Notes under the pieces: model-generated
What the model was told of the DNA's origin: nothing
The model's input: the letters and a program-made list of their open reading frames with translations, nothing else
Databases searched by the model: none
NCBI GenBank assembly: GCA_016218305.1
Contig: JACREJ010000112.1
Span: forward strand, 1 to 41,686
DNA: 41,686 bases
Direction of reading: 5' to 3'
Source: Gemmatimonadota bacterium
GTDB lineage: Bacteria; Gemmatimonadota; Gemmatimonadetes; Gemmatimonadales; Gemmatimonadaceae
In this document: in pieces, positions 2,628-37,957 of the stretch
Layout: each line of letters starts with the position of its first letter
Position numbering within the stretch: the first letter of the stretch is position 1
Made by a program: the position numbers and the translations under genes

Positions 2628-2712
2628 GCGGTCGTCGCCGGGGGGAAGAAGAGGCCCATCGCGGGCAGTCGACTCTAAAGTAAGGGGGAGGTGCCCTCTG
2701 AGGGTAGATGAC

Positions 2713-2875
2713 TGGGGATTGGGAGCTCGGATTTGGATTAGCGATTTGGATTCGCGATGGGGATTTGTGATTGGGACTGGGGATTGACCCCGGACGTGGC
2801 CATCGCGAATCCCAATCGTGATCCTGATCGCCGGTCCAGATCCGGATTCCCCATCCGAGATCATACTCCCAATCG
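2713..2875. repeat. Family C degenerate inverted repeat between divergent M50 peptidase gene and rpsT
   Basis: The 341-base gap 2628-2968 holds no gene. Most of it is a GATTGGG/CGGATT-rich left arm (about 2713-2788) and a complementary CCAATC/ATCCGG-rich right arm (about 2801-2875). Both arms are built of imperfect short units. The right arm read in reverse (CGATTGGGAGTATGATCTCG) is nearly identical to the left arm of the copy at 10366. The left arm shares GGGAGCTCGGATT with the copy at 20281. A GGTAGATG motif (family B-like) is present at 2702-2709. The arms could fold into an imperfect cruciform. Function is unknown. Confidence 0.75.
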
Positions 2876-2886
2876 TTTGCCGCACC

Positions 2887-2920
2887 TTGACTTGCCCCCC
2901 TTCATCGACCATTTTTACAA
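2887..2920 (+). promoter_or_regulatory. Possible rpsT promoter
   Basis: TTGACT at 2887-2892 matches a -35 box. An AT-rich patch ATTTTTACAA at 2911-2920 could serve as the -10, but its spacing from the -35 is 18 bases or more depending on the hexamer chosen, and none is a good match. The position, about 50-80 bases upstream of the rpsT GTG, is right. Confidence 0.35.
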
Positions 2921-2968
2921 GCTGGCGCCGAACGGCGCGCCTCGAACCACTGACGGAGAGTACCAAGC

Positions 2969-3202
2969 GTGCCAAGAATCGCGTCCGCAAAGAAGAACAT
3001 GCGCAAGACCCGCGCGGCGACCGTGCGCAACCGTGCGCAGCGCGCCACGCTGCGGACTGCCCTGAAGAAGGCCAAGTCGGGAACCGCCACGCCCGCGGAG
3101 AAGAAGGTCGCCGTCCAGCTCGTGGACCGCGCCGCCCGCAAGGGACTGGTGCACAAGAACGCCGCGGCGAGGCATAAGTCGCAGATTGCGAAGAAGGCGT
3201 AA
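2969..3202 (+). CDS. rpsT: 30S ribosomal protein S20
   Basis: A 77-residue, strongly basic protein with the S20 signature PRIASAKKNMRKTRAA at the N-terminus and a Lys/Arg-rich helical body ending HKSQIAKKA. S20 binds 16S rRNA early in small-subunit assembly. The length is slightly short but within the family range. The start is GTG at 2969 with GGAGAG about nine bases upstream. It stands alone on the plus strand. Family C repeats lie upstream and a very long family A palindrome follows the stop, presumably ending transcription. Confidence 0.95.
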   Translation: MPRIASAKKNMRKTRAATVRNRAQRATLRTALKKAKSGTATPAEKKVAVQLVDRAARKGLVHKNAAARHKSQIAKKA

Positions 3203-3211
3203 GCCTTTCGC

Positions 3212-3342
3212 AGAGAAACAACAGAGAGACAACAGAAAGACAACAGAGAAACAACAGAGGGGGCGACGCGATGTCGCCCCCTCCGCTATTTCCGTCTGTT
3301 GTCTTTCTGTTGTCTCTCTGTTGTCTCTCTGTTGTTTCTCTC
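3212..3342. repeat. Family A long palindrome of 11-bp units, probable bidirectional terminator
   Basis: The left arm 3212-3257 consists of about four 11-base units of the form ACAACAGARAG. The right arm 3295-3342 is its near-perfect reverse complement, with only a few differences over about 46 bases. Nested in the middle is an 11-bp GC-rich hairpin (3257-3267 pairing with 3273-3283, loop gcgat). The structure fills the space between the convergent rpsT and zinc-ribbon genes; its last bases overlap the TGA of the latter (3341-3343). Single arms of the same family occur at 10113 and 37908. A terminator role is inferred. Confidence 0.85.
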
Positions 3343-4495
3343 AGAACGCTGCCAGCTCCCCGCCGCACCGCTCACAATACCACTCGGTCGGGAAGTTGAG
3401 CGTGCCGCACTCCTGGCAGCGCAGGGACTTGATCGCCTCGCTCGTGCGCGGGGTCGGCCGGCCGAAGTAGCTCTCCCGCGGCGGCGTCATCTCCTGGCTC
3501 ACCCGGGGCTCCGGCACGGGATCCGGGAACGGCATCGGCGGTTCGGGCGTGGCGTAATCGCCCGCCTTGCTCTGCGAAGGAGCCGGCGGCTCCGGCGCAG
3601 GGGGAGGCGGCGGTGCGGCCGCGCCGCGCTTGGGCGTACCGCGACGCGACTCGGCGGGCGTGCGTTTCGGCACGAGCGCCGGCTCCATCGGGTGGAAGGT
3701 CCCCACGGGCGTCGGCCGTCCGACGACCGACTTCAGGAAAGCGAGTTCGTCGAAGCTCGGCGCCAGCGGCTGCGCGGGCTCCACCGGCGCAATGACGGAC
3801 TGTTCGTGAATCGGGATCGTCGGTGGCGCCTGCACGACTTCCGTGTTCACCGGCGTCGGGCGCGACGGTTCCGGTACCGCCTCGCCGGCGGGCACCTCGT
3901 CAACCGGCACCGCCTGATACGCACCCTCCTGCGAGAACTTCCACGCGTCATCTGCTGCCGATTCCGGCTGGACCGACGCGCCGGACTCCGCGGGCACCTC
4001 GCCCGCATCGGTCGGCGGTGAGACCTCGCCCGCCGGCTCCTCCTCAGCGACCGAGCCCGGCCCCGCGACCTCAGCCAGCACGTCGCGCAGGCGACGCAGT
4101 TCATCACGCAACGCATCCCGCTCGGAGGTGACCGCCGCTACGTCGTCGTCGAGCCGCGCGCGACGCTTTTCCCACTCCCGCTCGGAGAACTCGCCCACCG
4201 CGGCGCGCAGTTCGGCCTCGGCGCGCTCGTCGCGCTTCTTGGCCAGCGCCTCTTCGCGCTCCGTGAGGCGCGACGCCGCGTCCACCGCCGCCACCTGCAC
4301 CGAATCGGACGCGGCCACGAGCTTGGCCTGCACCTTCTCCAGCTTGGCCGTGTAGTCGTCGTGCACCTTCTGGTAGACCGCCGACGCCGTCTCGGCCCGC
4401 TTGGCGGCGAGCGCGGCGATCCAGCCCGCCACCTTGCGGCGCTCGGCCAGGAGCTTCTCGACGGTCTCCGCCGTGTCTTTTTCGGGGGTGCTCAT
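3341..4495 (-). CDS. Coiled-coil protein with Pro-rich linker and C-terminal zinc ribbon
   Basis: 384 residues in three parts. Residues 1 to about 150 are charged heptad-like helix (for example AELRAAVGEFSEREWEKRRAR), likely a coiled coil. Residues 150 to about 345 are a low-complexity Pro/Glu/Ala linker. The last 30 residues hold a zinc ribbon with two CxxC pairs (CQEC and CERC, about 15 residues apart). There is no signal peptide or membrane segment, so it is probably cytoplasmic. I do not recognise a named family. It is the last gene of the pyr group, 15 bases after the aldolase stop, which does not by itself indicate a role in pyrimidine metabolism. A scaffold or adaptor role would be a guess. 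Confidence 0.75.
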   Translation of the reverse strand: MSTPEKDTAETVEKLLAERRKVAGWIAALAAKRAETASAVYQKVHDDYTAKLEKVQAKLVAASDSVQVAAVDAASRLTEREEALAKKRDERAEAELRAAVGEFSEREWEKRRARLDDDVAAVTSERDALRDELRRLRDVLAEVAGPGSVAEEEPAGEVSPPTDAGEVPAESGASVQPESAADDAWKFSQEGAYQAVPVDEVPAGEAVPEPSRPTPVNTEVVQAPPTIPIHEQSVIAPVEPAQPLAPSFDELAFLKSVVGRPTPVGTFHPMEPALVPKRTPAESRRGTPKRGAAAPPPPPAPEPPAPSQSKAGDYATPEPPMPFPDPVPEPRVSQEMTPPRESYFGRPTPRTSEAIKSLRCQECGTLNFPTEWYCERCGGELAAF

Positions 4496-4510
4496 CGGGG
4501 GATTACCTCG

Positions 4511-5164
4511 TCAGCGGTTGCGAGACGCCTGCCGCAGCGCGTCGAGCGCGGCGAGGGCGTCGGCCGGCAATGATCGCACGGGACCGAGCGCGCGGGCCGT
4601 CCACGTGATCCGCGCGCCGTTCTCGAGACTCTCCATCCGCTGGTGCGCCTCGGTCAGCGTGCGGCCGACGGTGAGCGCGCCGTGATGCGCCATCAGGAAG
4701 GCGTCGTGCGACGCCCAGAAGGGATCGAAGACATCGGCCGCCGCGTCGGTGCTCGGCGTGCCGTACGGCACGAGCGCCACCGGCCCGACGCCGTAGCGCA
4801 CCTCGGCGAGCGTCGTCGTATCGATCGACTCGCCCACGAGCGTGAACGCGGTCGCCACCGGGGGGTGGGCGTGGACGACGGCGCGCACGTCCGCGCGCCG
4901 CTGGTAGGCGCGCAGGTGCACCGCCAGCTCGGAAGTCGGTCGCCGCGCCCCGCTGCGCACGGTGCCATCGAGGCCGAGTTCCACGAGATCCTCCGGACGC
5001 AGGTCCACCTTCGACAGTCCGGCCGGCGTCACCAGCACGGCATCGTCGCCGACCCGAACGGAGACATTCCCGTCCTGGCCCGCGATGAGTCCGCGCTCAT
5101 AGAGTCGCCGGCAGACAGCACAAACCGCCTGCCGAACGTCGTCGGTCCGGTGCGTGGCGGTTAC
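4511..5164 (-). CDS. Class II aldolase/adducin family protein with apparently damaged start codon (GTA)
   Basis: Class II aldolases are zinc enzymes acting on sugar phosphates or related compounds. The metal-ligand motifs VVHAHPP and LMAHHGALTVG are present. The conserved N-terminal part YERGLIAGQDGNVSVRVG lies upstream of the first canonical start (GTG 5036-5038). It is read continuously in frame back to a TAA at about 5174. Within that stretch there is no ATG, GTG or TTG. GTA at 5162-5164, overlapping the pyrC stop TAA, sits exactly where a GTGA overlap would be expected. A single G-to-A change would have turned GTG/TGA into GTA/TAA. I therefore give a 217-residue extent. Initiation at GTG 5038 would give a 175-residue protein lacking the GNVS phosphate-binding segment. 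The substrate is unknown (fuculose-phosphate-aldolase-like or methylthioribulose-dehydratase-like). Confidence 0.75.
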   Translation of the reverse strand, partial: VTATHRTDDVRQAVCAVCRRLYERGLIAGQDGNVSVRVGDDAVLVTPAGLSKVDLRPEDLVELGLDGTVRSGARRPTSELAVHLRAYQRRADVRAVVHAHPPVATAFTLVGESIDTTTLAEVRYGVGPVALVPYGTPSTDAAADVFDPFWASHDAFLMAHHGALTVGRTLTEAHQRMESLENGARITWTARALGPVRSLPADALAALDALRQASRNR

Positions 5165-6456
5165 CCCATCGCCTTATAGACGATCCGACCATCCACGAGG
5201 GTACATCCGACCCGCCCGTGCAGGATCCGCCCGCCATAGGGGGTGTTGCGCCCCTTGGTGAGGAAGGCCTTGGGGTCCACGGTCCACGCCTGATCGGGAT
5301 CGAAGACCGTGATGTCGGCCGCGGTGCCGCGGCGCAGGGTGCCCCCGGGCAGGCCGAACAGGCGCGCCGGGGCGCAGGCCATCCGCTCGATCAGCGTGCC
5401 CAGGGAGAGGATGCCGGACTTCACGAGCCAGGTCACGTTCACGGCGAGCGCCGTCTCGAGTCCGATGATGCCGTTGGGGGCGTCGCTGAACTCGCGCTGC
5501 TTGTCGTCGTTGTGGTGCGGCGCGTGGTCGGTGGCGATCACGTCGATCGTGCCGTCCTTCACCGCCTGCTGCACCGCCTCGACGTCCACCGCGGTGCGCA
5601 GCGGCGGATTCATCTTGGCGTTGGTGTTGTAGCCCTCCACCGCGGCATCGGTGAGCGACAGGTGGTGCGGGCAGGCCTCGGCCGTCACCGGGATGCCGCG
5701 CTCCTTGCCCCAGCGGATCAGCTCCACCGAGCCCTTGGTGCTCATGTGGCAGAGATGCACGTGGCCGCCCGTGAGGCGCGCGAGCAGGATGTCGCGGATG
5801 GCCATGATCTCCTCGGCCTCCGCGGGTATCCCCTTGAGGCCGAGGCGAGCCGAGACGAAGCCTTCGTGCATGGCGCCGCCGGCGGCGAGGGTGGGCTCCT
5901 CGCAGTGATCGGCCACCGGGATGCCGAAGGTGCGCGCATACTCGAGCGCGGTGCGCATCAGCTGCGCGCTCACCACCGGCCTGCCGTCGTCGCTCACCGC
6001 CACCGCGCCGGCGTGCACCATCTCGCCGAACTCGGCGAGGCGCTCGCCCTTCTGCCCAATGGAGATGGCGCCGATGGGATAGACGCGGGCGGCGTTGGCG
6101 GCGCGCCCCTGCTTGAGGACGAAGCCGACGGCGGCCTGATTGTCGGTGACTGGATCCGTGTTGGGCATTGCGCAGACGGCGGTGAAGCCGCCGGCGGCCG
6201 CGGCGCGTGCGCCGGTGAGGATCGTCTCGACGTCTTCCCTCCCCGGCTCGCGCAGGTGGCAGTGCACGTCCACGAAGCCCGGTGACACCACCTGCCCGGC
6301 GCACGGGATGACCTCGGCGCCGTCGGGCGTGCCGATGGTGCCGCCGAGCGCTTCCACCTTGCCGTTGCGGATGAGCAGGTCGCCCACACCGTCGAGGTTC
6401 GAGGACGGGTCGAGCAGTCGCCCGCCCTTGAGGAGCACGTCACGGTGTTCAGTCAT
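5161..6456 (-). CDS. pyrC: Dihydroorotase (class I)
   Basis: 431 residues. The amidohydrolase metal motif [12 protein letters not shown] lies around residues 61-72, with EACPHHLSL and the catalytic ATDHAPHH further on, as in class I dihydroorotases. It cyclises carbamoyl-aspartate to dihydroorotate, the third step of pyrimidine synthesis, in the cytoplasm. The ATG at 6454-6456 starts inside the pyrB end (8-base ATGACTGA overlap). It follows pyrR and pyrB, so it is very likely one transcript. The TAA stop overlaps the putative GTA start of the aldolase. Confidence 0.95.
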
Positions 6457-7414
6457 CACTGGTCGCCTTTCTTGCGGCCTCGGCGAGCGCCGGAGCGTTG
6501 CCCGCAAGGAGATAGAGCACGGCCATGCGCACGGCCACGCCGTTGGTCACCTGGTCGAGGATCACCGAGTGCGGGCCGTCCGCCACCTCGCTGTCGATCT
6601 CGACGCCACGATTCATCGGACCCGGGTGCATGATCAGGATGTCGCGCGGCGCGCGGTCGAGCCGCTCGCGCGTGATGCCGAAGACCCGGTTGTACTCGCG
6701 CAGCGAGGGGATGTAGCCCGCCGTCATGCGCTCGAGCTGGAGCCGCAGCACGTTGAGCGCGTCGGCCCACTCAATGGCCTGCTCCACGCGGTCGAAGACC
6801 TGCACGCCGAAGTCGGCAATGGCGGTGGGGAGCAGCGAGCGCGGGCCGCAGACGGCGACTTCGGCGCCGAGCTTGGTGAGCCCCCAGATGTTGGAGCGTG
6901 CCACGCGCGAGTGCAGGACGTCGCCGACAATGCAGATGCGCTTGCCGGCGAGCGTGCCGAACTTCCGGCGCAGGGTCAGCATGTCGAGCAGGCCCTGCGT
7001 CGGGTGCTCGTGCGTGCCGTCGCCGGCGTTGATGACGTTGCTCTCGATGCGCTCGGCGAGGAAGCGCGCCGCCCCCGAGGAGGCATGGCGGATGACCACC
7101 ATGTCGATCTTCATCGCCTCGAGGTTCTTGGCGGTGTCCACGAGCGTCTCGCCCTTGCTCACGGAGCTCACGGATGTCGCGACGTTCACCGTGTCGGCCG
7201 ACATGCGCTTCTCGGCGAACTCGAACGAGATGCGCGTGCGGGTGGAGGCCTCGAAGAACAGGTTGACCACCGTGGCGCCGCGCAGCGTGGGCACCTTCTT
7301 GATGGCGCGCTCGCTGATTTCGCGCAGCGGTTCCGCGGTGTCGAGAATGAGCGTGATCTGCTCGGCAGACAGGTGCTCGAGCCCGAGCAGGTCCTTGCCG
7401 AGCGGAGCGCTCAC
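6449..7414 (-). CDS. pyrB: Aspartate carbamoyltransferase catalytic subunit
   Basis: 321 residues with the carbamoyl-phosphate motif [13 protein letters not shown] (residues 53-65), HPTQGLLDM, and the aspartate-binding region [12 protein letters not shown]. The enzyme condenses carbamoyl phosphate with aspartate. The start is GTG at 7412-7414, overlapping the pyrR stop (GTGA). No pyrI regulatory subunit is seen nearby; as in Gram-positive pyr operons, regulation probably goes through PyrR. Length and motifs are normal. Confidence 0.96.
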
Positions 7415-7962: not shown

Positions 7963-8011
7963 GCGCTGTGGAATATGTGTCCACGGCATGCGATTGGACA
8001 ACGGGTTGGCG

Positions 8012-8044: not shown

Positions 8045-8136
8045 TCGAGTGGCTCACGCCCGGCGGCGACGCGGGCGTGGCGTGGTCCGGCGACCGTCCG
8101 GCCGCGGCGTGGCCGCGACGTCGGCGGGTCCGGCGA

Positions 8137-9972: not shown

Positions 9973-10017
9973 GATTTCGCTTCAGGTGCGGGGTGCTGGG
10001 TGCAGGGGAGCTATTAA

Positions 10018-10105: not shown

Positions 10106-10112
10106 GGGAACC

Positions 10113-10160
10113 ACAGAAAGACAACAGAAAAACAACAGAAAGACAACAGAGAAACAACAG
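10113..10160. repeat. Family A repeat, single arm, between two tRNA-Ser genes
   Basis: Four 11-base units of type ACAGAAAGACA/ACAACAGARA run on the plus strand without a matching inverted arm nearby. It lies in the 120-base gap between the two tRNA-Ser genes, just upstream of the 5' end of tRNA-Ser(GGA). The sequence is nearly the same as one arm of the palindrome at 3212-3342. Confidence 0.8.
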
Positions 10161-10225
10161 ACTCCCGCCCTACCGAACGACAGCGCGCCGGTGCGAGCAC
10201 CGACGCGCTGCGCGTCTTCATCGAA

Positions 10226-10365: not shown

Positions 10366-10523
10366 CGATTGGGAGTGTGATCTCGGATGAGGATTGGAGA
10401 TTCCGATTCGCGGTCCGGATCACGATGAGGCGTGCAGATTGCATCGCCCGCCCTGCCCATCGTCGTCCATATCGCTCATCCGCACCGCAAATCCAAATCC
10501 GAGATCCCCATCCGAGATCCTCG
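10366..10523. repeat. Family C degenerate inverted repeat between tRNA-Ser(CGA) and namZ
   Basis: Left arm from 10366 (CGATTGGGAGTGTGATCTCG...) is GGAT/GATT-rich. The right arm (about 10470-10523, with AAATCCAAATCCGAGATCCC and ATCCGAGATCC) is complementary in style. It sits between divergent genes, as does the copy at 2713. The first 20 bases differ at only one position from the reverse of the right arm at 2713-2875. Confidence 0.75.
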
Positions 10524-10573
10524 TTGGACGCGCCTCGTTGCCCCCCTCTGCCTCCCGTGCCACTTTTAGGCTC

Positions 10574-11794
10574 ATGACTACTCTCCGCCGACTCCTCCTC
10601 GCGACTACGGCCCTCGCCGTGGTCGGCTCCCCTGCCCTCGCCCAGCCCAAGGTCAAGACGGGTATCGAGGTGCTCCTCAAGGACTCGCTCCACCTCGTGC
10701 GCGGAAAGCGCGTGGGGCTGCTCACCAACCATAGCGGCCGCCTCCCCGACGGCACGAGCACCGTGGACGCGCTCTTCCGGACGCCCGGCGTCAAGCTGAC
10801 CGCACTCTTCGGTCCGGAGCACGGCATCCGCGGCGTCGCCAAGGCCGGTGAGAAGATCGCCACCGAGGTCGACCCGGCCACGGGCGTCATGGTCTACTCG
10901 CTGTACGGTGACGTGCGCGCCCCCACCCCCGAGATGCTGAAGACGGTGGACGTGCTGCTCTACGACATCCAGGACGTCGGCGCGCGCGTCTACACGTATC
11001 AGTGGACGATGGCGCTGGCGCTCGAGGCGGCGGGCAAGGCGGGCGTGCCCTTCATCATCCTCGACCGTCCGAACCCGATCCGCGCCGACAAGGTGGACGG
11101 CGGCATGCTCGACACGGCCTTCTCGTCGCTCGTCGGGCTCCATCCGGTGGCGCTCCGCTACGGCTTCACGCCGGGCGAACTGGGGCGCTGGCTCGTCGGC
11201 AGCGGCCGGGTCAAGGCCGAGGTGAAGGTGGTGCCGATGCAGGGCTACAAGCGCGCGATGTACTACGAGGACACGGGCCTGCCCTGGGTGCATCCGTCGC
11301 CCAACCTGCGCAACAACGACGCCAACGTCCTCTACACCGGCACGGTGTTCTTCGAGGGCGTCAACGTGAGCGAGGGGCGCGGCACCGACAACCCGTTCGC
11401 GCAGGTGGGCGCCAGCTGGCTCACCGATGCGGGCGCCATCGTGAAGGCGTTGAACGACAAGAAGATCCCCGGCGTCTGGTTCGACTCGGTGCTGAAGCCG
11501 GTGGAAGCGGGCTACGAGTTCGGCGGCCAGACGATTCCGATGATCCGCGCGACCGTGACCGACCGCGACGCGGTGGTGCCGGTGAACGTCGGGGCGCACA
11601 TGCTCCGCGCCATTTACGAGCGCCACAAGGACAAGTGGGAGTGGCGGAAGGGCTCCATTGACCGGCTCTCCGGCAGCGCGCGCCTGCGCGAAGCGGTGGA
11701 GAAGGACGGCGGCATCGAGGCCTTGCTCCCGGTCTATCAGGCCGAGGCGAACAAGTTTCTGACGGAATCGAAGAAGTACTGGATCTACAAGTAG
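10574..11794 (+). CDS. namZ: Exported DUF1343 protein, NamZ-like exo-beta-N-acetylmuramidase
   Basis: 406 residues with an N-terminal signal peptide (LLLATTALAVVGSPALAQ, cleavage after AQA-type site near residue 24). The mature part carries DUF1343/PF07075 landmarks: GLLTNHSGR, FGPEHGIRG, DIQDVGARVYTYQWTMA, DRPNP, PSPNLRN and FEGVNVSEGRGT. NamZ removes N-acetylmuramic acid from the non-reducing ends of peptidoglycan fragments, so a cell-wall recycling role in the periplasm or outside is likely. The start ATG 10574 fits the signal peptide. The AT-rich patch CTTTTAGG ends only a few bases before the ATG, so a very short leader is possible. The family call is firm, the exact activity inferred. 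Confidence 0.88.
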   Translation: MTTLRRLLLATTALAVVGSPALAQPKVKTGIEVLLKDSLHLVRGKRVGLLTNHSGRLPDGTSTVDALFRTPGVKLTALFGPEHGIRGVAKAGEKIATEVDPATGVMVYSLYGDVRAPTPEMLKTVDVLLYDIQDVGARVYTYQWTMALALEAAGKAGVPFIILDRPNPIRADKVDGGMLDTAFSSLVGLHPVALRYGFTPGELGRWLVGSGRVKAEVKVVPMQGYKRAMYYEDTGLPWVHPSPNLRNNDANVLYTGTVFFEGVNVSEGRGTDNPFAQVGASWLTDAGAIVKALNDKKIPGVWFDSVLKPVEAGYEFGGQTIPMIRATVTDRDAVVPVNVGAHMLRAIYERHKDKWEWRKGSIDRLSGSARLREAVEKDGGIEALLPVYQAEANKFLTESKKYWIYK

Positions 11795-11925
11795 CTTCGA
11801 CCGCGAAGGACGAAGGGCGCGAAGGGCCGCGAAGAGTGACCTCTCTTCGCGACCCTTTGAGCACCTGGTCCTTGCCGGTCGATCGCCTTCGCGCCCCTTC
11901 GCGTCCCTCGTGCTTCGTTGTTGTC
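11795..11925. repeat. Family D palindrome (GCGAAGG units), probable bidirectional terminator
   Basis: Between the convergent namZ and tadA. A perfect inner stem CGCGAAGAG (11828-11836) pairs with CTCTTCGCG (11843-11851), and AAGGG/CCCTT extends it. An outer pair of GCGAAGGACGAAGGGCGCG-like and CTTCGCGCCCCTTCGCG-like arms (about 11802-11825 and 11885-11909) surrounds it. The design is the same as the family A palindrome (short degenerate units in long arms around a compact hairpin) but the unit is different. Confidence 0.75.
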
Positions 11926-17614: not shown

Positions 17615-19516
17615 TTAGAGATCGCCAAGGGTACTGTCAAGTAACGCGGCAACGGCCGGGTTTGGACGGTCCCAGTGGAACTTCCGCCCCTCTCCAGCCC
17701 GCGTGCAGAGGCCCAGGCGGTCGCACGCTTCGATCAGCGGAATGGCGTACTTCCGGCTAATACCGAATATTTCCCGAAACTCACCCGCCGCGTAGCTTCG
17801 CGGATCCTGCGTGCCCGCGCGCAACGCCAGCAACGCGTCTCGCCACGCACCCGGCGACAGGAATCGCTCCTCCGCGATGGCCACCACCCGCCCCTCCCGC
17901 TCGAGCAACCTGAGGAGCGCCGGCGTCCGCGGGCCCGCTTCTGCGGCGATCTCGGCAGCCGTCGGCGCCTCCCGCCCCGCCGCTGCCAGCACACGCTCGA
18001 TGGTCTGGATGTCGACGCGGTCGTCCGATGAAAGCTTCGGTTGCCATCCCGCGCGCGACACGAGACCGTCGGAGATCGCAATGCGGCCGCGCTCCACGGC
18101 CGTCGCAAACACCCAGTCGGTGAGCGCGCTGCCAAGCCCGAGCCGGCTGCGCAATGGTTGCAGCGGCGTGCCACGGTCGAGCGGCCGAGCCGCATGCGCA
18201 GCGTCCACCGACTGCACCAACGCTTCCTCCGCGGCATCGAGTCGCTGACGCTCCACCAGGCACGCACCGACGCGGACGACATCGGCGGACAGCTGCCCGA
18301 TCACTGCCGCGCAGGCCTCGGGCGCGAGGCCCAGCCGCATCGGCGCCGCGGCCACGGCGAAGCCGCGTCCCGCCTCCTCTTCGATCATCCATCGCAGCCG
18401 CTGGTCGGCCGTGGCGCCCGCCGATGCGAACGGAGGCGTGCGACGGAAGGGCGGCGCGGGATCGGTGATGATGCCGCCGCCGATGGTCGTCGGCGGCGTT
18501 GCGGCGCGCAGCACGAAGCGGTCTCCGCCCCGCGCAACGAGCGGCTGGTCGAGGACGAGGCGCACGGGGACCACCGCTCCGGGGAGCACCGGTGCGCCGC
18601 GCGCCACCACGCGCGCACCAACATCGGCGGTGCCGAGATGCAGGCGCACGCGCGTCCGGGCGGTGAGCACCACCGCCGCATCATCGAAGAGGGCGACGTC
18701 GGCGCGCATGCGATCGCGCGCCACCCACGCATCAGCGGCGCCCACGAGCACGGCGCCGCGCTCCAGTGCGTCGCGGTCGGCCCCGGCGAGCGCCACGGCC
18801 ACGCGCTGCCCGGCGAGCCCGGACTCCGCCGCGTGACCGTGCGTCTCCACCCCGCGCACCCGCAGCGTCGCGCCGCCCGGGAATGCGCGCAGCGCGTCGT
18901 CTCTCCGCACGCTGCCGCTCCATACGGTGCCCGTGGCTACAGTGCCGGTGCCCTTCACCGTGAACACGCGATCCACGGGCATGCGAAAGGCGTCTCGGAC
19001 GTCGCGGGCCGGCACGGCGGCGGCGGCCGTGGCGAGCGCCGCACGAAGTTGTCCGATGCCCTCGCCGGTGCGCGCCGACACGGCGATGACGGGCGCGCCC
19101 GCGAGCGCAGAGCCCTCGAGCAGGAGCGCGACGTCGTCCGCGGCGAGGGCGCGCATCTCGTCGTCCACGGAATCGGACTTGGTGAGTGCCACCACGCCCC
19201 CACGAATGCCCAGCGCGCCGAGGATGGCGAGGTGCTCGCGCGTCTGCGGCATCACCCCTTCGTCGGCGGCGACCACGAGCAGCGCGAGATCGACCCCTGC
19301 CGCGCCGGCGAGCATGGTGCGGACGAACGCCTCGTGACCCGGCACGTCCACCACGCCCAGCGTGCCAATGCCGTCGAGCTCGAGCGGCGCGAAGCCGAGT
19401 TCGATGGTGATGCCGCGCCGCTTCTCCTCGGGCAGCCGGTCGGTGTCCACCCCGGTGAGCGCGCGGACGAGCGCCGTCTTGCCGTGATCGATGTGCCCGG
19501 CGGTGCCGAGAATCAC
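17615..19516 (-). CDS. selB: Selenocysteine-specific translation elongation factor SelB
   Basis: 633 residues. The GTPase domain has GTAGHIDHGKT (P-loop, residues 4-14), RRGITIELGF, DVPGHEAFVRTM and TKSD. Two EF-Tu-like beta domains follow. The C-terminal half holds winged-helix repeats that bind the SECIS RNA, ending EFREIFGISRKYAIPLIE and AGEGRKFHW. SelB carries Sec-tRNA to the ribosome at UGA codons followed by SECIS. GTG at 19514-19516 overlaps the recO stop (GTGA) and matches the family N-terminus VILGTAGHIDHG. An upstream in-frame start eight codons earlier is less likely. selA, selD and tRNA-Sec are not in the window. Confidence 0.94.
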   Translation of the reverse strand: MILGTAGHIDHGKTALVRALTGVDTDRLPEEKRRGITIELGFAPLELDGIGTLGVVDVPGHEAFVRTMLAGAAGVDLALLVVAADEGVMPQTREHLAILGALGIRGGVVALTKSDSVDDEMRALAADDVALLLEGSALAGAPVIAVSARTGEGIGQLRAALATAAAAVPARDVRDAFRMPVDRVFTVKGTGTVATGTVWSGSVRRDDALRAFPGGATLRVRGVETHGHAAESGLAGQRVAVALAGADRDALERGAVLVGAADAWVARDRMRADVALFDDAAVVLTARTRVRLHLGTADVGARVVARGAPVLPGAVVPVRLVLDQPLVARGGDRFVLRAATPPTTIGGGIITDPAPPFRRTPPFASAGATADQRLRWMIEEEAGRGFAVAAAPMRLGLAPEACAAVIGQLSADVVRVGACLVERQRLDAAEEALVQSVDAAHAARPLDRGTPLQPLRSRLGLGSALTDWVFATAVERGRIAISDGLVSRAGWQPKLSSDDRVDIQTIERVLAAAGREAPTAAEIAAEAGPRTPALLRLLEREGRVVAIAEERFLSPGAWRDALLALRAGTQDPRSYAAGEFREIFGISRKYAIPLIEACDRLGLCTRAGEGRKFHWDRPNPAVAALLDSTLGDL

Positions 19517-20268
19517 GCGTCCACCTCGTGGCGCTCCCACGCGAGCAGGGCGCGCAGCGGACGGCCGCCGTCGGTGAGGTGCTCCTCGAGGAACTCACGC
19601 AGCAGGCGCTGGTGCGCGCGCAGGCTCAGGTCGTCGAGCGGGGGCGGCACCTGCCGTCCGAGCCACGCCCGGATCGCGTCACGCGCCGCGGGCGGCAGCG
19701 TGCGCGCTCCCCGCGCCTGACGCGCGCAGGCGGCGCAGAGCGCGCCGCCAGCGCGGTGGTGGAAGCTCACGGCCACGGCGGGATCGATGGCCGCATGGCA
19801 CGAGACACACGCGTCGAGCGATGGCGCGAAGCCCAGCTCCGCGACCAGGCACCACGCGCCACCGAGCGCCACTGGCTCTGCCTCGCCCTTCGGCGCCAGC
19901 GCGATCGCATCGAGGGCATCGGTGACGGTGTCGAGCAGGCCCGGATCCTCCTGCTCCGGCGCAAACCGGAGCAGCAGTTCGGCCAGCGCCGCCGCCGCCG
20001 CGAAGCGGTCGAGCGACTCGGCCAGCGCGGGCCGCGACTTGGTGGCCTCGAAGGCGTTCAGGATGTGGAGGTCGCGCCCCATCGTGGTGACCAACTGCGC
20101 CTCGCCACTCGCAAACAGGTCGAGCGCCGCGCCGAACTTGCTGCGCGGACGCCGCGCGCCTCGGGCGATGGCCGACACGATCCCCAGCTCCCGCGTGACG
20201 AGTCGCACGATGCGCGACGTCTCGCGGTAGTCGAAGGCGTGGAGGACGAGGGCGTCAGTAGTGATCAC
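19513..20268 (-). CDS. recO: DNA repair protein RecO
   Basis: 251 residues. An OB-fold N-terminus (TTDALVLHAFDYRETSRIVRLVT) is followed by a helical part. The zinc site comes from CVSCHAA and CAACA. RecO works with RecR and RecF in loading RecA on gapped DNA. The start is GTG 20266-20268. No Shine-Dalgarno is visible; the bases directly upstream belong to a family C repeat. selB follows with a GTGA overlap. Confidence 0.93.
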   Translation of the reverse strand: MITTDALVLHAFDYRETSRIVRLVTRELGIVSAIARGARRPRSKFGAALDLFASGEAQLVTTMGRDLHILNAFEATKSRPALAESLDRFAAAAALAELLLRFAPEQEDPGLLDTVTDALDAIALAPKGEAEPVALGGAWCLVAELGFAPSLDACVSCHAAIDPAVAVSFHHRAGGALCAACARQARGARTLPPAARDAIRAWLGRQVPPPLDDLSLRAHQRLLREFLEEHLTDGGRPLRALLAWERHEVDA

Positions 20269-20269: not shown

Positions 20270-20360
20270 AGTCAGGATGGGGAGCTCGGATTGGGACTGC
20301 GGATTGCGATTTTCGATGACGATGTCGATGTCGACCGGGATGGCGATTTCGAAGACGATG
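20270..20360. repeat. Family C repeat directly before recO
   Basis: GGGAGCTCGGATTGGGACTG and further GGATT/CGATG units occupy most of the gap between btuB and recO. The first units share GGGAGCTCGGATT with the copy at 2713. No clear second arm is present. It ends two bases before the recO start, so it takes the place of a ribosome-binding site. Confidence 0.65.
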
Positions 20361-20365
20361 ATTCG

Positions 20366-20392
20366 GCGGGCGGCAGACTTGCCGCCGCCCGC
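20366..20392 (-). terminator. Hairpin after btuB
   Basis: GCGGGCGGC (20366-20374) pairs with GCCGCCCGC (20384-20392), about 25 bases after the btuB stop on the minus strand. It has no U-tract, only AATCATCG, so efficiency is unclear. Confidence 0.55.
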
Positions 20393-20416: not shown

Positions 20417-22345
20417 CTACGGGCGGCCGATGGTCAGGCCGGCGCGGAGGGAGCGTCCGGGCGCGCGGAAGCCGTAGATGCCCTGGTACGCGACATCGGT
20501 GACGTTGTCGGCGCGCAGGCGCGCGTGCACCGGGACCGACGCGTCGGCGGCGGACAGCCGGACATTGGCCGCGACGTCCACGAGGGTACGAGCGGGCAGT
20601 TCAACCGGCTTGGCGGGCCAGGCCGAGTAGTCGCGATCGTGCGCGCGCCCGGTGTAGGCGGCGCCAACCACGAGGTGGGCGCGCGACGCCACGCGGCGCG
20701 ACAGCTCGACGCGCGCGGTGTGCGCCGGGCGCCGCATCAGCGGCTGGCCGCGCACGAACGTGGCGCCATCTCCGACATCGAACCCTTCATCGGTGACGCG
20801 CGTGCGCGAGTACGCATACGTCACGCGCGCCCCTACGCCGCCGATCGGCGCGAACGCCGCCTCGGCCTCCACGCCATCGGCCTCGGCCGCCGCCACGTTC
20901 ACGTAGTTCGGCGCGGTGGGACTCATCGTGAGTGGATTGTACTGGATGAGGTCGCGGAAGCGCTGCTGGTAGGCGGTGACGACGAGCGTGGCGCTGGGCG
21001 TGGTGCGCTCGATGGCGACCTCCCGGCTGCGCGTCTGCTCCGGCACCAGCGCGGCATTCCCCCGCACGTAGCCCGTGGCGAAGTTTTCGAAGAAGCTCGG
21101 CGCGCGGAACGCCGAACCCACCGCGGCGCGCGTGCGCCATGCCTTGGAGAGCTGCCAGCCGGCGGACAGGCGCGCCGTGCGGAAGGTGCCGAACGCGCTG
21201 TTGTCGTCGAGGCGCGCGCCCACCTGGTACGAGCCGCGCGCGCCGAGGCCGCCGACCGCCTGCGCATAGACCGCACGGTCGTTGCGCGCGGCGACGAAGG
21301 AGCCCGCGTCCTCGCCATACTCGCTGAGCGAGCGCGTCGACGATCGCTCGTGGTCTCGCGATCCGTCGGCGCCGACCGTGAGGGAGTGCGTGGCGCCGAC
21401 GCGCGCCGTCAGCCGAAGCTCCGCCGCGCGGCGGGTGACGGTGCCTCGCGAGAAGAAGCCGTAGAAGCCAACCGTATCGGCGGCGGAATCGGGGCCGTCG
21501 TTGGCACGCGGAAAGTGCTCACTCGACGACAGGGTCCACGAAGCAGTGAGCCGATCACTGATGGCACGGCGCCCCGCGAATGCGAGCGCCAACCGGCGGG
21601 TGGTATTCTCCGCGTTGCGCTCACCGAGCGAGCCGTCCGACTCCGTGGGATAGTGGTACGACGCCGCCAGCCAGCGCGCCGAGAGCACGGCCTCGGTGCG
21701 CGCATCAGGGGCCAGGCGAAGCGAGGCTGCGGCCGAGCGGTTGCGATAGTCGTTGTTGAACGGGAGGATGCCGTTGGAGGAGCGATCCGCAAGCGAAGCG
21801 CTCGCCGAGGCGCGCGCGCCGCCGACCGCACCGGAGAGGGCGACGTCTCGCTGGCCGTACGATCCGCCGTCGGCCGCCAGTGCGGCCCGCGCACCGCTCG
21901 CCCCCGTGCGCGAGATGAGCTGGATGACCCCGGTGACCGCGTCGGCGCCGTAGAGCACGCTGGCGGGCCCACGCACGATCTCGATGCGCTCGATGTTGTC
22001 GAGCGTCAGGGCGCCGAGATCGATGGCGCCTCCGGGCTCGTTGAGCGGGGCGCCATCGAGCAGCACGCGCACGTAGTTGCCCTGGCCGCCCCGCACGAAG
22101 AGCGAGGCCTGCGAGCCATGCGAGGACGCCGTCACGACGCTCACGCCCGGCACGAGGCGCAGCGCGTCGGTGAGGTGCACCAGGCCGCGCGCGCGCAGCG
22201 AATCGCCGCTGAGCACGGTGACGCTGGCCGGCGCGCGCACGGCAGTCTCCACCCGGGTCGCCGTGACGACGACGGGCGAGAGCGGCGTGGAGGTGGATTG
22301 CGCGTACAGGGCGGCGGGGAGTGCGAGCAGGAATAGGGGGCGCAT
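20417..22345 (-). CDS. btuB: TonB-dependent outer-membrane receptor, BtuB-like
   Basis: 642 residues. Signal MRPLFLLALPAALYAQ, a TonB-box-like stretch (SPVVVTATRVET), then a plug domain with VPGVSVVTASSHGSQASLFVRG and IERIEIVRGPASVLYGADAV. The C-terminal two thirds is a beta-barrel of alternating strands ending near SLRAGLTIGRP. It is the fourth gene of an operon that begins with a cobalamin riboswitch and btuFCD, so the likely substrate is B12 or another corrinoid. The bases before ATG 22343-22345 lack a Shine-Dalgarno; a family B repeat occupies the gap of 46 bases to btuD. The specificity call comes from context. Confidence 0.87.
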   Translation of the reverse strand: MRPLFLLALPAALYAQSTSTPLSPVVVTATRVETAVRAPASVTVLSGDSLRARGLVHLTDALRLVPGVSVVTASSHGSQASLFVRGGQGNYVRVLLDGAPLNEPGGAIDLGALTLDNIERIEIVRGPASVLYGADAVTGVIQLISRTGASGARAALAADGGSYGQRDVALSGAVGGARASASASLADRSSNGILPFNNDYRNRSAAASLRLAPDARTEAVLSARWLAASYHYPTESDGSLGERNAENTTRRLALAFAGRRAISDRLTASWTLSSSEHFPRANDGPDSAADTVGFYGFFSRGTVTRRAAELRLTARVGATHSLTVGADGSRDHERSSTRSLSEYGEDAGSFVAARNDRAVYAQAVGGLGARGSYQVGARLDDNSAFGTFRTARLSAGWQLSKAWRTRAAVGSAFRAPSFFENFATGYVRGNAALVPEQTRSREVAIERTTPSATLVVTAYQQRFRDLIQYNPLTMSPTAPNYVNVAAAEADGVEAEAAFAPIGGVGARVTYAYSRTRVTDEGFDVGDGATFVRGQPLMRRPAHTARVELSRRVASRAHLVVGAAYTGRAHDRDYSAWPAKPVELPARTLVDVAANVRLSAADASVPVHARLRADNVTDVAYQGIYGFRAPGRSLRAGLTIGRP

Positions 22346-22351: not shown

Positions 22352-22384
22352 GGAGGGTAGATGGTGGAGGGTAGACGGTAGACC
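22352..22384. repeat. Family B repeat (GGTAGATGG-like units) between btuD and btuB
   Basis: Units GGGTAGATGG, GGAGGGTAGA and CGGTAGACC fill the gap between btuD and btuB. The same unit occurs at 37285-37318 before ribBA and as a single copy at 2702. It ends seven bases before the btuB start. Confidence 0.7.
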
Positions 22385-25132: not shown

Positions 25133-25200
25133 TGCACGCCGAGCGCGCCAACGATGCGCCCGCCGCCACGTGGCCTCCCCCGAGGCATCTGGTGTGGCAC

Positions 25201-25343
25201 GGACGCGGGGCGTCTCCTGGCTCCGGGCCCCCGCTCCCCTTCCCAGCCGCGACGCGACCAGTGGGTGAATGAGCGGGGCGAACTACGCCCGTTACAGTGG
25301 CGGGGCCGCGCCGGACTTCCACCGGCTTCCGTGACCCGCATCC
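25201..25343 (-). promoter_or_regulatory. Cobalamin riboswitch
   Basis: Minus strand. The closing stem is GGATGCGGG (25335-25343 reversed) with CCCGCGTCC (25201-25209 reversed), one G-U pair. The core matches the B12-box architecture: GAAGCCGGTGGAAGTCCGG, then GCCACTGTAACGGG, and near the 3' side GGAGCCAGGAGACGCC. A loop region for the kissing interaction and the terminator follow. It regulates btuF-btuC-btuD-btuB. Cobalamin element family (Rfam RF00174) by pattern; I did not run a covariance search. Confidence 0.93.
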
Positions 25344-25370
25344 GTCATGACTTCTGTTGTGATCGGGAAC

Positions 25371-33744: not shown

Positions 33745-33750
33745 GGCGGC

Positions 33751-34071: not shown

Positions 34072-34072
34072 G

Positions 34073-35179: not shown

Positions 35180-35592
35180 TAGAGGCGCCCCATGCGTCGC
35201 GCGAGGGCGTCGAGCACTCCGTTCACGAAACGGGCACTCTGCTCGCTGCCGAAGCGCTCGGCGAGCCGCACCGCCTCCTGGAGGACAACGCGAGGCGGGG
35301 TGCTGCCCTGCGAGAGCTCCGCCGCGGCCAGGCGCAGCACGCAGCGCTCGATGGCGCCCAGGCGCTCAATGCGCCAGTTGGTGGTGACTTCCCCGAGTTC
35401 GGCGTCGAGCGCCTCTCCCTGCGCCTGCACGATGCGCAACAGCGCGTCGGCGAAGGCCCGCTCTTCCGGCGCGACTTCGAGATCATCCCACAGGAGCAGC
35501 GCGACGCGGTCGAGCGGCTGCCCGTCGCGGAGGTCCCACGCGTACAGCGCCTGGAGCGCCCGCGCCCGTCCCCGCGTCTCAAGTCGAGCCAT
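35179..35592 (-). CDS. nusB: Transcription antitermination factor NusB
   Basis: 137 residues, all helical. Begins RGRARALQALYAWDL; later NWRIERLGAIERCVLRLAAAEL and VVLQEAVRLAERFGSEQSARFVNGVLDAL are typical. It binds boxA with NusE in rRNA antitermination. The gene follows ribH (TGATG overlap), the standard ribH-nusB order. Confidence 0.95.
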   Translation of the reverse strand: MARLETRGRARALQALYAWDLRDGQPLDRVALLLWDDLEVAPEERAFADALLRIVQAQGEALDAELGEVTTNWRIERLGAIERCVLRLAAAELSQGSTPPRVVLQEAVRLAERFGSEQSARFVNGVLDALARRMGRL

Positions 35593-36080
35593 CAGTCATC
35601 CCCGGCGTCGCTGCCCGCGTCCAACAGTCCGAAGAGGTCGGCCATCTGCATCGCGGCCAGCGCCGCGTCCCATCCCTTGTTGCCATGCGCGCCGCCGGCA
35701 CGCTGCAGCGCCTGCTCGAGCGTGTCGGTCGTCAGCAGCGCGAAGCCAATGGGCACGCCGTACTCCCCCTGGAGCATGGAGAGGCCGCGCGAGGCCTCGC
35801 CGGCGACGAAATCGAAGTGCGGCGTCTCCCCGCGGATCACCGCGCCGCAGGCTACCACGGCGTCGTAGCGCTCGCTCATCAGGACGCGGGCCACGGCCGC
35901 GGGCAGCTCCCACGCGCCCGGCACCCACACCACGTCCACGTCGTCGGCCCGCGCGCCGTGACGCACCAGGCAGTCGAGCGCACCGTTGACGAGCGACTGC
36001 GTCACGGTCTCGTTGAAGCGGCTCGCGACGACGACGAAGCGGCGTCCGGCCCCGGTCGGCGTTCCTTCGAACTCGGCCAT
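35592..36080 (-). CDS. ribH: 6,7-dimethyl-8-ribityllumazine synthase
   Basis: 162 residues. FVVVASRFNETVTQSLVNGAL, WVPGAWELP, the active-site region CGAVIRGETPHFDFVAGEASRGL, and GFALLTTDTLEQALQRAG, all as in lumazine synthase. It makes the lumazine precursor of riboflavin, often as an icosahedral shell. Overlaps ribBA by one base (TGATG). Confidence 0.97.
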   Translation of the reverse strand: MAEFEGTPTGAGRRFVVVASRFNETVTQSLVNGALDCLVRHGARADDVDVVWVPGAWELPAAVARVLMSERYDAVVACGAVIRGETPHFDFVAGEASRGLSMLQGEYGVPIGFALLTTDTLEQALQRAGGAHGNKGWDAALAAMQMADLFGLLDAGSDAGDD

Positions 36081-37282
36081 CAGAGCGCTCGCAGGTGCCC
36101 GAGCTTGCGCACCTTGGTTTCGAGGTAGTTGGCGTTCTCGACCGTCGCGGGCGAGATGATCGGCACGCGTTCACCGAGGCGCAGTCCATAGCCCTCGAGG
36201 CCGACCAGCTTCTTGGGATTGTTGGTGATCGGGCGGATGGACTTGAGGCCGAGGTCGAGCAGGATCTGCGCGCCGATGCCGTAGTTCCGGAGGTCGGGAG
36301 CGAAGCCGAGCTTCTCGTTGGCCTCCACCGTGTCGGCGCCGAGGTCCTGCAGTTCGTACGCCTTCAGCTTGTTGAGCAGGCCGATGCCGCGTCCTTCCTG
36401 GTCGAGATAGACGATCACGCCCCGCTCCGCCTCGGCGACGAGCCGCATCGCCTCATGCAGCTGCCAGCGGCAGTCGCAACGCAGCGAATGGAACGTGTCG
36501 CCCGTGAGGCACTTGGAGTGCATGCGCACGAGCACGTCCTCGTCGCCGTCCACGCTGCCCATCACCAGCGCCACGTGTTCGCGATCGTCCACGTCGTTGC
36601 GATAGCCAATGACAGTGAACTCGCCGAACTCCGTGGGGAGGCGCGCCTCCGCGACACGGTGCACCAGGCGCTCGTTCTGCAGCCGGTGCGCCACGAGCTG
36701 CGCCACCGTGATGAAGGTGAGGCCGTGCTTCTCGCAGAACTGCTCGAGCTGCGGCCGCTTGGCCGTGGAGCCGTCCTCGGTCAGGATCTCGCAGATGACG
36801 CCGGCGGGCTGGAGCCCGGCCAGCCGCATCAGGTCCACGGCGGCCTCGGTGTGCCCGACCCGTTCCAGCACGCCGCCTTCGCGCGCGCAGAGCGGGTGCA
36901 CGTGACCGGGACGCCGGAAGTCGGAGGGAACGGCCAGCGGGTCGGCGCAGCGACGAATCGTGGCCGCCTGGTCGGCGGCGCTGATGCCGGTGGTCACGCC
37001 GTAGCGGCGCACCGCGTCGATGGTCACCGTGTACGCGGTGCGGAGCGCGTCGGTGTTCTCACTCCCCATCATGGGCAGGTCGAGCTGCGCCACCCGCGCC
37101 GGACTGAGCGCGACGCAGATCATGCCCTTGGCGTGCATGAGGAAGTTGACCTTCTCCGGCGTGACGAATTCCGCCGCCAGGATGAGGTCTCCCTCATTCT
37201 CGCGGTCTTCGTCGTCCGCGACGACGATGAACTTGCCGGTGCGCAGGTCGTGGAGGGCCTGATCAATGGTCGAGAAAGGCAT
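36080..37282 (-). CDS. ribBA: Bifunctional DHBP synthase / GTP cyclohydrolase II
   Basis: 400 residues. N-terminal DHBP synthase: DDEDRENEGDLILAAEF, metal His in GHTEAAVDL. C-terminal GTP cyclohydrolase II: zinc Cys in CLTGDTFHSLRCDC, DQEGRGIGLLNKLKAYELQD. Both starting branches of riboflavin synthesis are supplied by one protein. The ATG at 37280-37282 shares a base with the ribE TGA, and no Shine-Dalgarno is visible because the upstream bases are a family B repeat within ribE. Initiation likely depends on coupling. Confidence 0.97.
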   Translation of the reverse strand: MPFSTIDQALHDLRTGKFIVVADDEDRENEGDLILAAEFVTPEKVNFLMHAKGMICVALSPARVAQLDLPMMGSENTDALRTAYTVTIDAVRRYGVTTGISAADQAATIRRCADPLAVPSDFRRPGHVHPLCAREGGVLERVGHTEAAVDLMRLAGLQPAGVICEILTEDGSTAKRPQLEQFCEKHGLTFITVAQLVAHRLQNERLVHRVAEARLPTEFGEFTVIGYRNDVDDREHVALVMGSVDGDEDVLVRMHSKCLTGDTFHSLRCDCRWQLHEAMRLVAEAERGVIVYLDQEGRGIGLLNKLKAYELQDLGADTVEANEKLGFAPDLRNYGIGAQILLDLGLKSIRPITNNPKKLVGLEGYGLRLGERVPIISPATVENANYLETKVRKLGHLRAL

Positions 37283-37899
37283 CAGGCAGATGGTAGATGG
37301 TAGATGGTAGACGGCAGGTGCGGCGCAGCCAGGCGCTGCACGTACTTGCCCACCAGATCGGCTTCGACGTTTACACGGTCGCCGGCGCGCAAGTCGCCAA
37401 GCATCGTGTGACGCAGGGTGTACTCGATCAGCGAGACCTGCACGCCGCCATCGAGGAGTTCGTTCACCGTGAGGCTCACGCCGTTCACGGCGATGGAGCC
37501 GTGCGGCACCATCAGGGGCGTCCACTCGGCGCCCAGCGCGAGATCCACCAGCAGCGCGTCGCCGTACGCCGCAACACGCGTGACGTCGGCCACGGTGTCC
37601 ACGTGTCCCGCCACGAGGTGGCCGCCGAGCCGGTCGCCCAGCGCCATCGACCGCTCGGTGTTGATGCGGCGACCCGCCGTCCAGGCGCCGAGCGTGGTGC
37701 GCTCGAGCGTCGTGGTCACGGCCGCCACGGTGAATGTGCCCGCCCCCGACTCGCGCACGGTCAGGCAGACCCCATCGCAGGCGATGCTCTCACCGGCCGT
37801 GAGGTCGGTATACACCGAACGTACGACAAACTCGCGGCCGGCCGGAGTCGGCGTGGCCGCAACTATAGTGCCGATGTCGCTGACAATACCGGTGAACAT
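37282..37899 (-). CDS. ribE: Riboflavin synthase alpha chain, with C-terminus encoded by a repeat
   Basis: 205 residues. MFTGIVSDIG start, GESIACDGVCLTV, and the second lumazine-protein domain with GHVDTVADV, SIAVNGVSLTVNE and the usual end VNVEADLVGKYVQRL. The last dozen residues (PHLPSTIYHLPSA) are not family sequence; they are the translation of the family B repeat at 37285-37318. The enzyme dismutates lumazine to riboflavin as a trimer. The ATG 37897-37899 lacks a Shine-Dalgarno; a family A repeat ends nine bases upstream. Confidence 0.95.
   Translation of the reverse strand: MFTGIVSDIGTIVAATPTPAGREFVVRSVYTDLTAGESIACDGVCLTVRESGAGTFTVAAVTTTLERTTLGAWTAGRRINTERSMALGDRLGGHLVAGHVDTVADVTRVAAYGDALLVDLALGAEWTPLMVPHGSIAVNGVSLTVNELLDGGVQVSLIEYTLRHTMLGDLRAGDRVNVEADLVGKYVQRLAAPHLPSTIYHLPSA
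37285..37318. repeat. Family B repeat (GGTAGATG units) in the 3' end of ribE
   Basis: Three to four copies of a 7-base GGTAGAT unit, then GGTAGACGG, form the last codons of ribE and end three bases before the ribBA start. The unit is the same as that at 22352-22384. Confidence 0.8.
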
Positions 37900-37907
37900 A
37901 GATAGTT

Positions 37908-37957
37908 CAGAGAAACAACAGAAAAACAACAGAGAGACAACAGAGAGACAACAGACT
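37908..37957. repeat. Family A repeat, single arm, between ribD and ribE
   Basis: Four 11-base units ACAACAGARAG on the plus strand (the reverse of the coding strand) occupy most of the 68-base ribD-ribE gap. No opposite arm is present. It lies nine bases before the ribE ATG, in the position of a ribosome-binding site. Confidence 0.8.

Follow-up and report, generated by a model that had tools for sequence, protein, structure and literature searches.

Degenerate tandem arrays at gene boundaries of a Gemmatimonadota bacterium: purine-first pairs that resemble repeat-armed terminator hairpins

Which described repeats come closest to the degenerate tandem arrays that decorate gene boundaries in a Gemmatimonadota bacterium of the family Gemmatimonadaceae? 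These arrays are seen in a stretch of 41,686 nucleotides, here called the window (contig JACREJ010000112.1, positions 1 to 41,686, assembly GCA_016218305.1). A close parallel is offered by the GGGAATC and GGGGA(C/T)T repeats of Xanthomonas and Nostoc, to which their describers, in the accessible part of the report, assigned no role (Rehm 2015, PMC4692102). As far as that part goes, these repeats share with the arrays short G-rich units, a preference for four copies, an intergenic location close to stop codons and a position nearer the 5' neighbouring open reading frame regardless of its orientation; pairs in convergent orientation number 70 and 75 in two Xanthomonas genomes (PMC4692102). Unlike the present case, the study describes, to the same extent, one family per genome and reports no core (PMC4692102), whereas we find many families, exchange of families at matching sites and arrays that mostly cannot form a quadruplex. 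Only family C, introduced below, resembles the unit GGGNATC with its four G-tracts. The dialects of the DNA uptake sequences of Neisseriaceae are, in the portion of the source at hand, likewise short dispersed repeats with species dialects and inverted pairs at terminators (PMC3630211). The arms described here differ in being tandem arrays with no known uptake role, and each genome holds several unrelated tandem families instead of one short dispersed motif. Intrinsic bidirectional terminators, according to excerpts of two reports (PMC5381666, PMC4824070), agree in having a hairpin after the stop codon, the purine side first and stems that vary while pairing is kept; in contrast, the present elements have repeat arms of ~25-100 nt in place of A/U tracts of a few bases, and their arm families switch. 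The TAACTGA direct repeats of Beggiatoaceae also form heptamer arrays a few nucleotides before starts and are patchy over distant phyla; the available text gives 169 sets of direct repeats against a single indirect repeat, and the likeness extends only to the start-adjacent single arms seen here (PMC4679880). Finally, the short tandemly repeated repetitive (STRR) sequences of filamentous cyanobacteria are, in what could be consulted of their description, hairpin-capable short tandem arrays in non-coding DNA (PMC2670836). In the open-licence literature that was searched, nothing similar to the present elements was met in print. We know of no link between STRR sequences and terminators.

The repeats of the window lie far above chance level. 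We sampled 557,230 bp of its own genome: 39 stretches chosen by rule (the first 20 kb of each third contig) and two deliberate additions, stretch C72 (L070) and the window itself. In the non-coding sequence of this sample, taken with 15 nt on each side and judged against an order-2 Markov expectation, ACAACAGAG occurs 63 times (0.29 expected), GATGGGAGA 67 times (0.9) and GGATTGGGA 32 times (0.7). Seed-defined arrays number 97 in intergenic and 6 in coding sequence, and Tandem Repeats Finder (TRF) returns 403 arrays, 133 of them intergenic. At least eight unit families are present: A (the 11-bp unit ACAACAGARAR), the AGAYGGN superfamily of heptamers, C (GATTNGG.. units of 13 bp, headed by GAGCTCGGATTGGG), D (GCGCGAAGGG), P (CACGGAGG..), F (GGAGTGGAG), G (GGGTGCAGGG..) and H (GTACGACAG). 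In the own-genome sample, family A is close to fixed at four units (19/23 arrays). A previous, sequence-only reading of the window had listed repeats at nine sites, sorted them into four families and proposed a single shared design enriched at gene boundaries throughout the genome. Direct reading of each site finds all nine to hold repeats as described, and the 9-mer counts, the 97:6 distribution and the polarity and position counts given below support the proposal, which was to fall if the units were not enriched genome-wide or lay at random relative to genes; neither is the case. Four families proved too few, B being merely one variant of the AGAYGGN superfamily. Longer tandem repeats also occur in gaps of the own genome, with units of 59 bp (L041, 7107-7225), 46 bp (L054, 1348-1471) and 43 bp (L058, 1108-1219).

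Three observations go beyond that reading. Paired arrays keep a fixed purine-first polarity, sister species exchange families at matching sites, and some of these sites carry a plain or one-armed hairpin. In the own-genome sample the purine-rich arm comes first in 22/22 gaps that hold two arrays on opposite strands, 20 with one family in both arms and 2 mixed; one ++ and one -- gap exist besides. A family-agnostic collection of inverted pairs from five species, G001 being sampled from contigs 1-20, comprises 46 pairs, of which 38 are purine-first, 1 is pyrimidine-first and 7, being ambiguous, were dropped. The sole clear pyrimidine-first pair among the remaining 39 lies in G001 (L268, 10804-10883) and is built of CATCGGCCATCCGCC units. 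For array counts we left out arrays with a purine fraction of 0.35-0.65 and those not flanked by genes on both sides. Among 49 gaps with at least two biased arrays, 40 are +-, 0 are -+, 6 are ++, 2 are -- and 1 is +--; context and polarity counts were recomputed on the rule-chosen stretches alone, where the corresponding numbers are 16, 0, 4, 2 and 1. Since an inverted pair looks identical from either strand, the purine-first polarity speaks for a process that has a direction, transcription being an example. The same bias is found at array-free convergent hairpins of these genomes, 30 of which have a purine-rich 5' flank and a pyrimidine-rich 3' flank versus 2 with the reverse (n=33); array-free codirectional hairpins split 61 versus 30 (n=112) and divergent ones 17 versus 15 (n=33). 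The arms look like an elaboration of a polarity already present in array-free convergent hairpins. A telomere-like 3' extension at breaks, which would share the purine-outward polarity, was dropped as a candidate in view of the plain and one-armed hairpins at matching junctions.

Where do the arrays lie relative to genes? Counting gaps of at least 60 bp, and with genes predicted by a home-made hexamer gene finder whose start positions may be off, we find arrays in 42/99 convergent, 110/488 codirectional and 22/174 divergent gaps (convergent versus divergent, p=5e-8); on the rule-chosen stretches the figures are 27/50, 63/221 and 10/74 (p=2e-6). Enrichment in convergent and depletion in divergent gaps is the distribution to be expected of bidirectional terminators. 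The purine strand runs outward from the gene, 195/235 arrays being nearer a gene at their 5' end. Two traits of the GGGAATC repeats, a G-rich strand with its 5' end beside the gene and convergent pairing, are therefore present here as well (195/235 arrays and 38/39 pairs). The median distance to a preceding stop codon is 4-5 nt; before start codons it is 18 nt in codirectional and 35 nt in divergent gaps. Single arrays resemble halves of pairs, in that the arm beside each gene is oriented as in a full element.

The anatomy can be followed at the convergent junction between rpsT and the gene at 3341-4495. After the rpsT stop codon, a purine arm of four ACAACAGARAR units (3211..3259, plus strand) leads into a G+C-rich core hairpin, GAGGGGGCGACGCGATGTCGCCCCCTC (3257..3283), read directly and comparable to cores in G006 and G001; a pyrimidine arm of four units (3295..3341, minus strand) then adjoins the stop of the opposite gene. 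Arms included, the element folds at -90.7 kcal/mol, with a z-score of -13.36 (z-scores throughout are relative to dinucleotide shuffles). Five such convergent junctions were compared within the genus, and they carry plain, one-armed or two-armed hairpins with arm families that differ between species. The rpsT junction (J1, window 3203-3340) is readable in eight species including our own: G000, G006, G005 and G001 have family A arms around a G+C core, G010 has the related unit ACGACAGAGA around the core, G007 has a single flanking unit, and G008 and G004 have plain hairpins. At the rpsT junction of other genera, AGTTGAAGAGTTGAAAAGT arms are found in L099 (same order) and ACTAGTG units in L090 (same family).

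Families at the sister-species junctions were judged by eye. J2 carries family A in G000, G006, G010 and G001, AGAGAGAAAGC in G005 and G002, AACAGAGTAG in G009 and a weak ACGACAG form in G008; the gap in G004 measures just 12 bp. At J3, heptamer variants occur in G000, G006 and G010, and family P in G003; G009 has a hairpin with a single pyrimidine array, and the gaps of the other six species measure <=58 bp. J4 is the site of family D in the window, where the purine arm (11803..11834, plus strand) begins 8 nt past the stop of the NamZ-family gene 10574-11794 and the pyrimidine arm (11886..11908, minus strand), recovered with its partner by k-mer matching, lies in the same convergent gap (fold z -5.34). 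G000 and G007 have family D there, whereas G006, G010, G005 and G001 have heptamer variants, G004 and G008 a hairpin with a single pyrimidine arm, G003 a repeat of GCTCGTGC and G002 a gap of 9 bp. At J5, nine species carry C variants, G003 carries GCGCACGA and G005 a plain hairpin, with the reservation that the neighbouring protein reaches just 36-48% likeness in 7/11 species, G005 among them, so that strict orthology of that side is unsure. When elements shorter than 60 bp or longer than 300 bp are set aside, all 39 remaining junction elements show the higher purine content on their 5' paired side. An arm pairs better with its own partner than with partners from other species in 201/290 comparisons, several species scoring low; this fits co-evolution of the two arms, yet arm length is a confounder. 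A core is detectable in 24/39 elements, J2 and J3 contributing just two each. Between species, core identity averages 0.58, 0.65, 0.48, 0.56 and 0.63 for J1-J5, against 0.54, 0.52, 0.27, 0.40 and 0.52 for the adjoining 45 nt of the 5' arm and 0.46 for random G+C-rich 24-mers. Judged by these identities, cores seem to track the site and arms the family, but the contrast is small. Within the own genome, the cores of family A (6 cores from 5 elements) resemble one another no more than random G+C-rich 24-mers do (0.46 in both cases), which does not fit a repetitive extragenic palindrome (REP) or miniature inverted-repeat transposable element (MITE), in which a conserved body is copied as a unit.

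What might such elements do? The repeats are real and systematic, and they are best read as repeat-armed terminator hairpins and their one-armed relatives. We lean, if only slightly, towards regarding the arrays mainly as arms of long bidirectional hairpins of the intrinsic-terminator type, whose terminating action we infer. What the sequences themselves display is the anatomy of paired elements (a stop codon, a purine-rich array, often a G+C-rich core hairpin, a pyrimidine-rich array and the next gene), their polarity and position, and the plain, one-armed and two-armed forms at matching sites of sister species. As RNA polymerase clears the stop codon, the purine arm would emerge and the core or loop would fold; while the pyrimidine arm is transcribed, with a somewhat weaker RNA-DNA hybrid, the growing RNA stem could zip up behind the polymerase, which would release or pause. 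Tandem units would permit pairing in several registers. One element could function on both strands, so that it would serve both genes of a convergent gap and, between divergent promoters, would cut stray transcripts from either direction. Single arrays may be half-elements that retain one arm, and the pyrimidine-only arms that precede starts within operons probably reflect a secondary use or are relics. The purine arm might also lengthen the distance from ribosome to hairpin. In an E. coli test reported in the accessible part of PMC4824070, a greater ribosome-hairpin distance increased termination, and in that of PMC4692102, quadruplex-capable repeats of Xanthomonas coincide with the start or stop of a transcript more often than control repeats do.

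Several results weigh against termination as the role of the arrays. Some purine arms pass directly into a G+C-rich hairpin, and a strict core (a perfect stem of at least 7 within 60 nt of the purine arm, a rule that imperfect stems escape) lies beside 38/235 arrays, where mononucleotide shuffles predict 3.2; yet cores are no commoner beside arrays than in random 60-nt windows of array-free gaps. The frequencies beside arrays and in array-free gaps are 18/58 versus 14/57 for convergent, 18/151 versus 39/378 for codirectional and 2/26 versus 9/152 for divergent gaps. For GGGAATC pairs of other bacteria, a G+C core is present in 5/80 (80 of 85 stretches examined), with a chance rate of 4.4%. The pyrimidine arms form only modestly weak hybrids, -1.46 kcal/step compared with -1.75 for coding sequence and -0.21 for a T tract, and hence are no U-tracts; the pyrimidine strand is the weaker one in 235/235 arrays, partly as a consequence of how arrays were selected. 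No U run of the kind that follows the stem of an intrinsic terminator is found, family A alone among the families read looking U-rich. An equivalence of the arms to A/U tracts as a general rule was given up, as the hybrid energies do not support it. Elements do exist in divergent gaps (22/174), 46/90 codirectional single arrays appear in the transcript as the pyrimidine strand ahead of a start codon, and the arm between ribD and ribE lies inside an operon, where termination does not explain it.

The equal frequency of cores near arrays and in array-free gaps means that the arrays sit at ordinary hairpin places and add no cores. With the loss of this enrichment, our confidence in the terminator reading dropped a little, from fairly likely to only slightly better than even, and that in a by-product origin rose. 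According to the latter, slippage and fold-back copying grow arrays in existing terminators or free gaps, where they are tolerated without function. A tolerant location, the plain hairpins retained by arm-less sister species, the equally common cores of array-free gaps and a family A copy number that ranges from 3 to 12 in G006 are all in line with it. A blind process should, however, yield pyrimidine-first pairs too, of which we see 1/39, and it does not account for a single family recurring at dozens of sites, nor for unrelated families replacing each other at one site; we hold it to be unlikely. Together with the terminator reading we entertain, tentatively and with doubt, that the arms are exchangeable cassettes: a process would rewrite both arms of terminators genome-wide in the current dialect of the species while the locus-specific core and the purine-first polarity are kept. 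On this reading a trans-acting RNA or protein that reads the dialect might exist, since purine arms at transcript ends are complementary, across the genome, to the pyrimidine arms before starts.

Could the single arms before start codons act after transcription instead? Pyrimidine-rich leaders might recruit S1, cold-shock or similar proteins, comparable to what was proposed for TAACTGA. Among the start-facing codirectional singles, 28/46 lie within 20 nt of the start. In the window, a single family A arm fills the ribD-ribE gap (A3, 37908..37955, plus strand), is pyrimidine-rich in the transcript directly before the ribE start and has no core. By eye, a clear pyrimidine-rich array precedes ribE in 8/10 species, again with no core seen, and it belongs to several families: A or near variants in G000, G006, G001, G005 and G010, the CTCTGCTTTC type in G002, an H-like type in G003 and a G-type in G007, with an irregular C-rich tract in G004 and an unclear one in G008. 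In this comparison the upstream gene was not alignment-checked in any species, and the array fills the stretch read in G007 and G010. A B-type tract ends ribE directly before the next start at 10/10 genus loci (by eye); in the window it is the array B2 (37288..37311, plus strand), inside the last codons of ribE by our own gene call and directly before the start of an overlapping ribAB-type gene. The single arm B1 of the AGAYGGN superfamily (22352..22383, plus strand) is likewise pyrimidine-rich directly before the start codon of gene 20417-22345. Upstream of recO (19513-20268), the C3 arm (20275..20360, plus strand), pyrimidine-rich in the transcript, follows a directly read G+C hairpin (20365..20392) that separates it from an upstream TonB-receptor gene. 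At this site G003 has a B-type array instead, G002 and G010 show a core with no array, and the gaps of G005 and G007 are short; G+C hairpins stand at the matching place in several sister species (by eye). A leader function leaves the stop-adjacent arms, the paired arms and the convergent-gap enrichment unexplained, and we regard it as decidedly unlikely to be the general role.

Unit dialects vary among five sister species. Family A reaches 118 matches per Mb in G000, 85 in G001, 51 in G005, 152 in G006 and 3 in G008; part of the stretches from G005 and G006, and a few from G008, came from contigs already known to carry matches, which may have inflated the family A densities there. ACGACAGA occurs 90 times per Mb in G001 and 0-15 times in the other four. 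Within the phylum, family A is confined to 8/395 genomes, all of this genus (10 members drawn; 0/385 outside), with 0 to 212 matches per genus genome, while the four-unit heptamer pattern is found in 28/395 genomes and 13/138 genera. Neither pattern has a clean negative: unit A, ACAACAGAGAG (for example at 3211-3259), is mirror-symmetric (ACAACA plus GAGAG), so that the pattern read backwards matches too, and the backwards heptamer pattern also found matches. GGGAATC pairs with an equivalent arrangement are present in Xanthomonadaceae, Solimonas, Gemmatimonas, Planctomycetota, Verrucomicrobia and other groups, although here the search pattern fixed the polarity and thus does not test it. Some of these pairs, in L180, L187 and L201, carry GTAAAAGC ... 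GCTTTTAC-like sequence beside the loop, purine-first, in place of a G+C core. The remark in the sequence-only reading that broadly similar arrays exist in some soil phyla agrees with these matches across phyla and with the GGGAATC repeats as the accessible part of their report describes them (PMC4692102). Do the dialects mark a sequence-specific signal, either DNA-uptake-like or recognised by a DNA- or RNA-binding factor, which molecular drive spread until it came to lie in terminators, like the uptake sequences of Neisseriaceae? The species-specific densities, the confinement of family A to one genus, ComEC in 11/11 genomes and the location of inverted uptake-sequence pairs at terminators, as given in the part of that study at hand (PMC3630211), are in line with it. 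Each of the many unrelated families of a genome would require its own receptor, ComEC is widespread (10/14 control genomes) and no proof of uptake specificity, and the polarity is left unexplained; such a signal appears still less probable than a leader function. G-quadruplex elements, as studied for the GGGAATC repeats, are very improbable despite the G-runs of families C, E (the GGGAGATGG heptamer) and G, and as a common mechanism they are largely refuted, a canonical quadruplex being possible in just 26/235 arrays and 0/50 of family A.

The other arrays of the window occupy divergent gaps and a tRNA pair. Upstream of rpsT, a divergent gap holds C1, with a purine arm of about six degenerate 13-bp units (2714..2785, plus strand) and a degenerate pyrimidine partner (2801..2880, end approximate, minus strand) that pairs with it in the fold (z -7.25). 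By eye, the C1 hairpin is kept with changed, complementary-looking arms in L072, L074 and L076-L078, and L075 and L079 have one arm only at this site. C2 (10366-10525), in the divergent gap between a tRNA-Ser gene and gene 10574, is a weak element (arms 10366..10425, plus strand, and 10485..10525, minus strand; fold z just -2.26). Between the two tRNA-Ser genes lies the single arm A2 (10109..10161, plus strand), pyrimidine-rich in the tRNA transcript, where it is preceded by a G+C hairpin (10182..10209) situated between the upstream tRNA-Ser and the arm. A family G-like array (GGTGCGGGGTGCTGGGTGCAGGGG) at 9985-10008, beside a tRNA-Ser gene, was absent from the earlier list. By Pfam, the neighbouring genes encode S20 (rpsT), NamZ, a TadA-kind deaminase, RecO, a TonB receptor, RibD, a lumazine-binding RibE and a RibAB-type protein. 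Rfam finds two tRNAs and a cobalamin riboswitch (25190-25355, minus strand) in the window and nothing else.

The polarity shared by unrelated families, together with the plain and one-armed junctions of sister species, turns intergenic repeats without an assigned role into a testable claim about transcript ends, for which the compared junctions can serve as natural controls. Related repeats have a scattered distribution across several phyla. That families are exchanged at one site raises an evolutionary puzzle, in that 50-bp arms reach dozens of sites and the intervening sequence does not. If arms are indeed rewritten, this would amount to a genome-wide concerted evolution of transcript ends.

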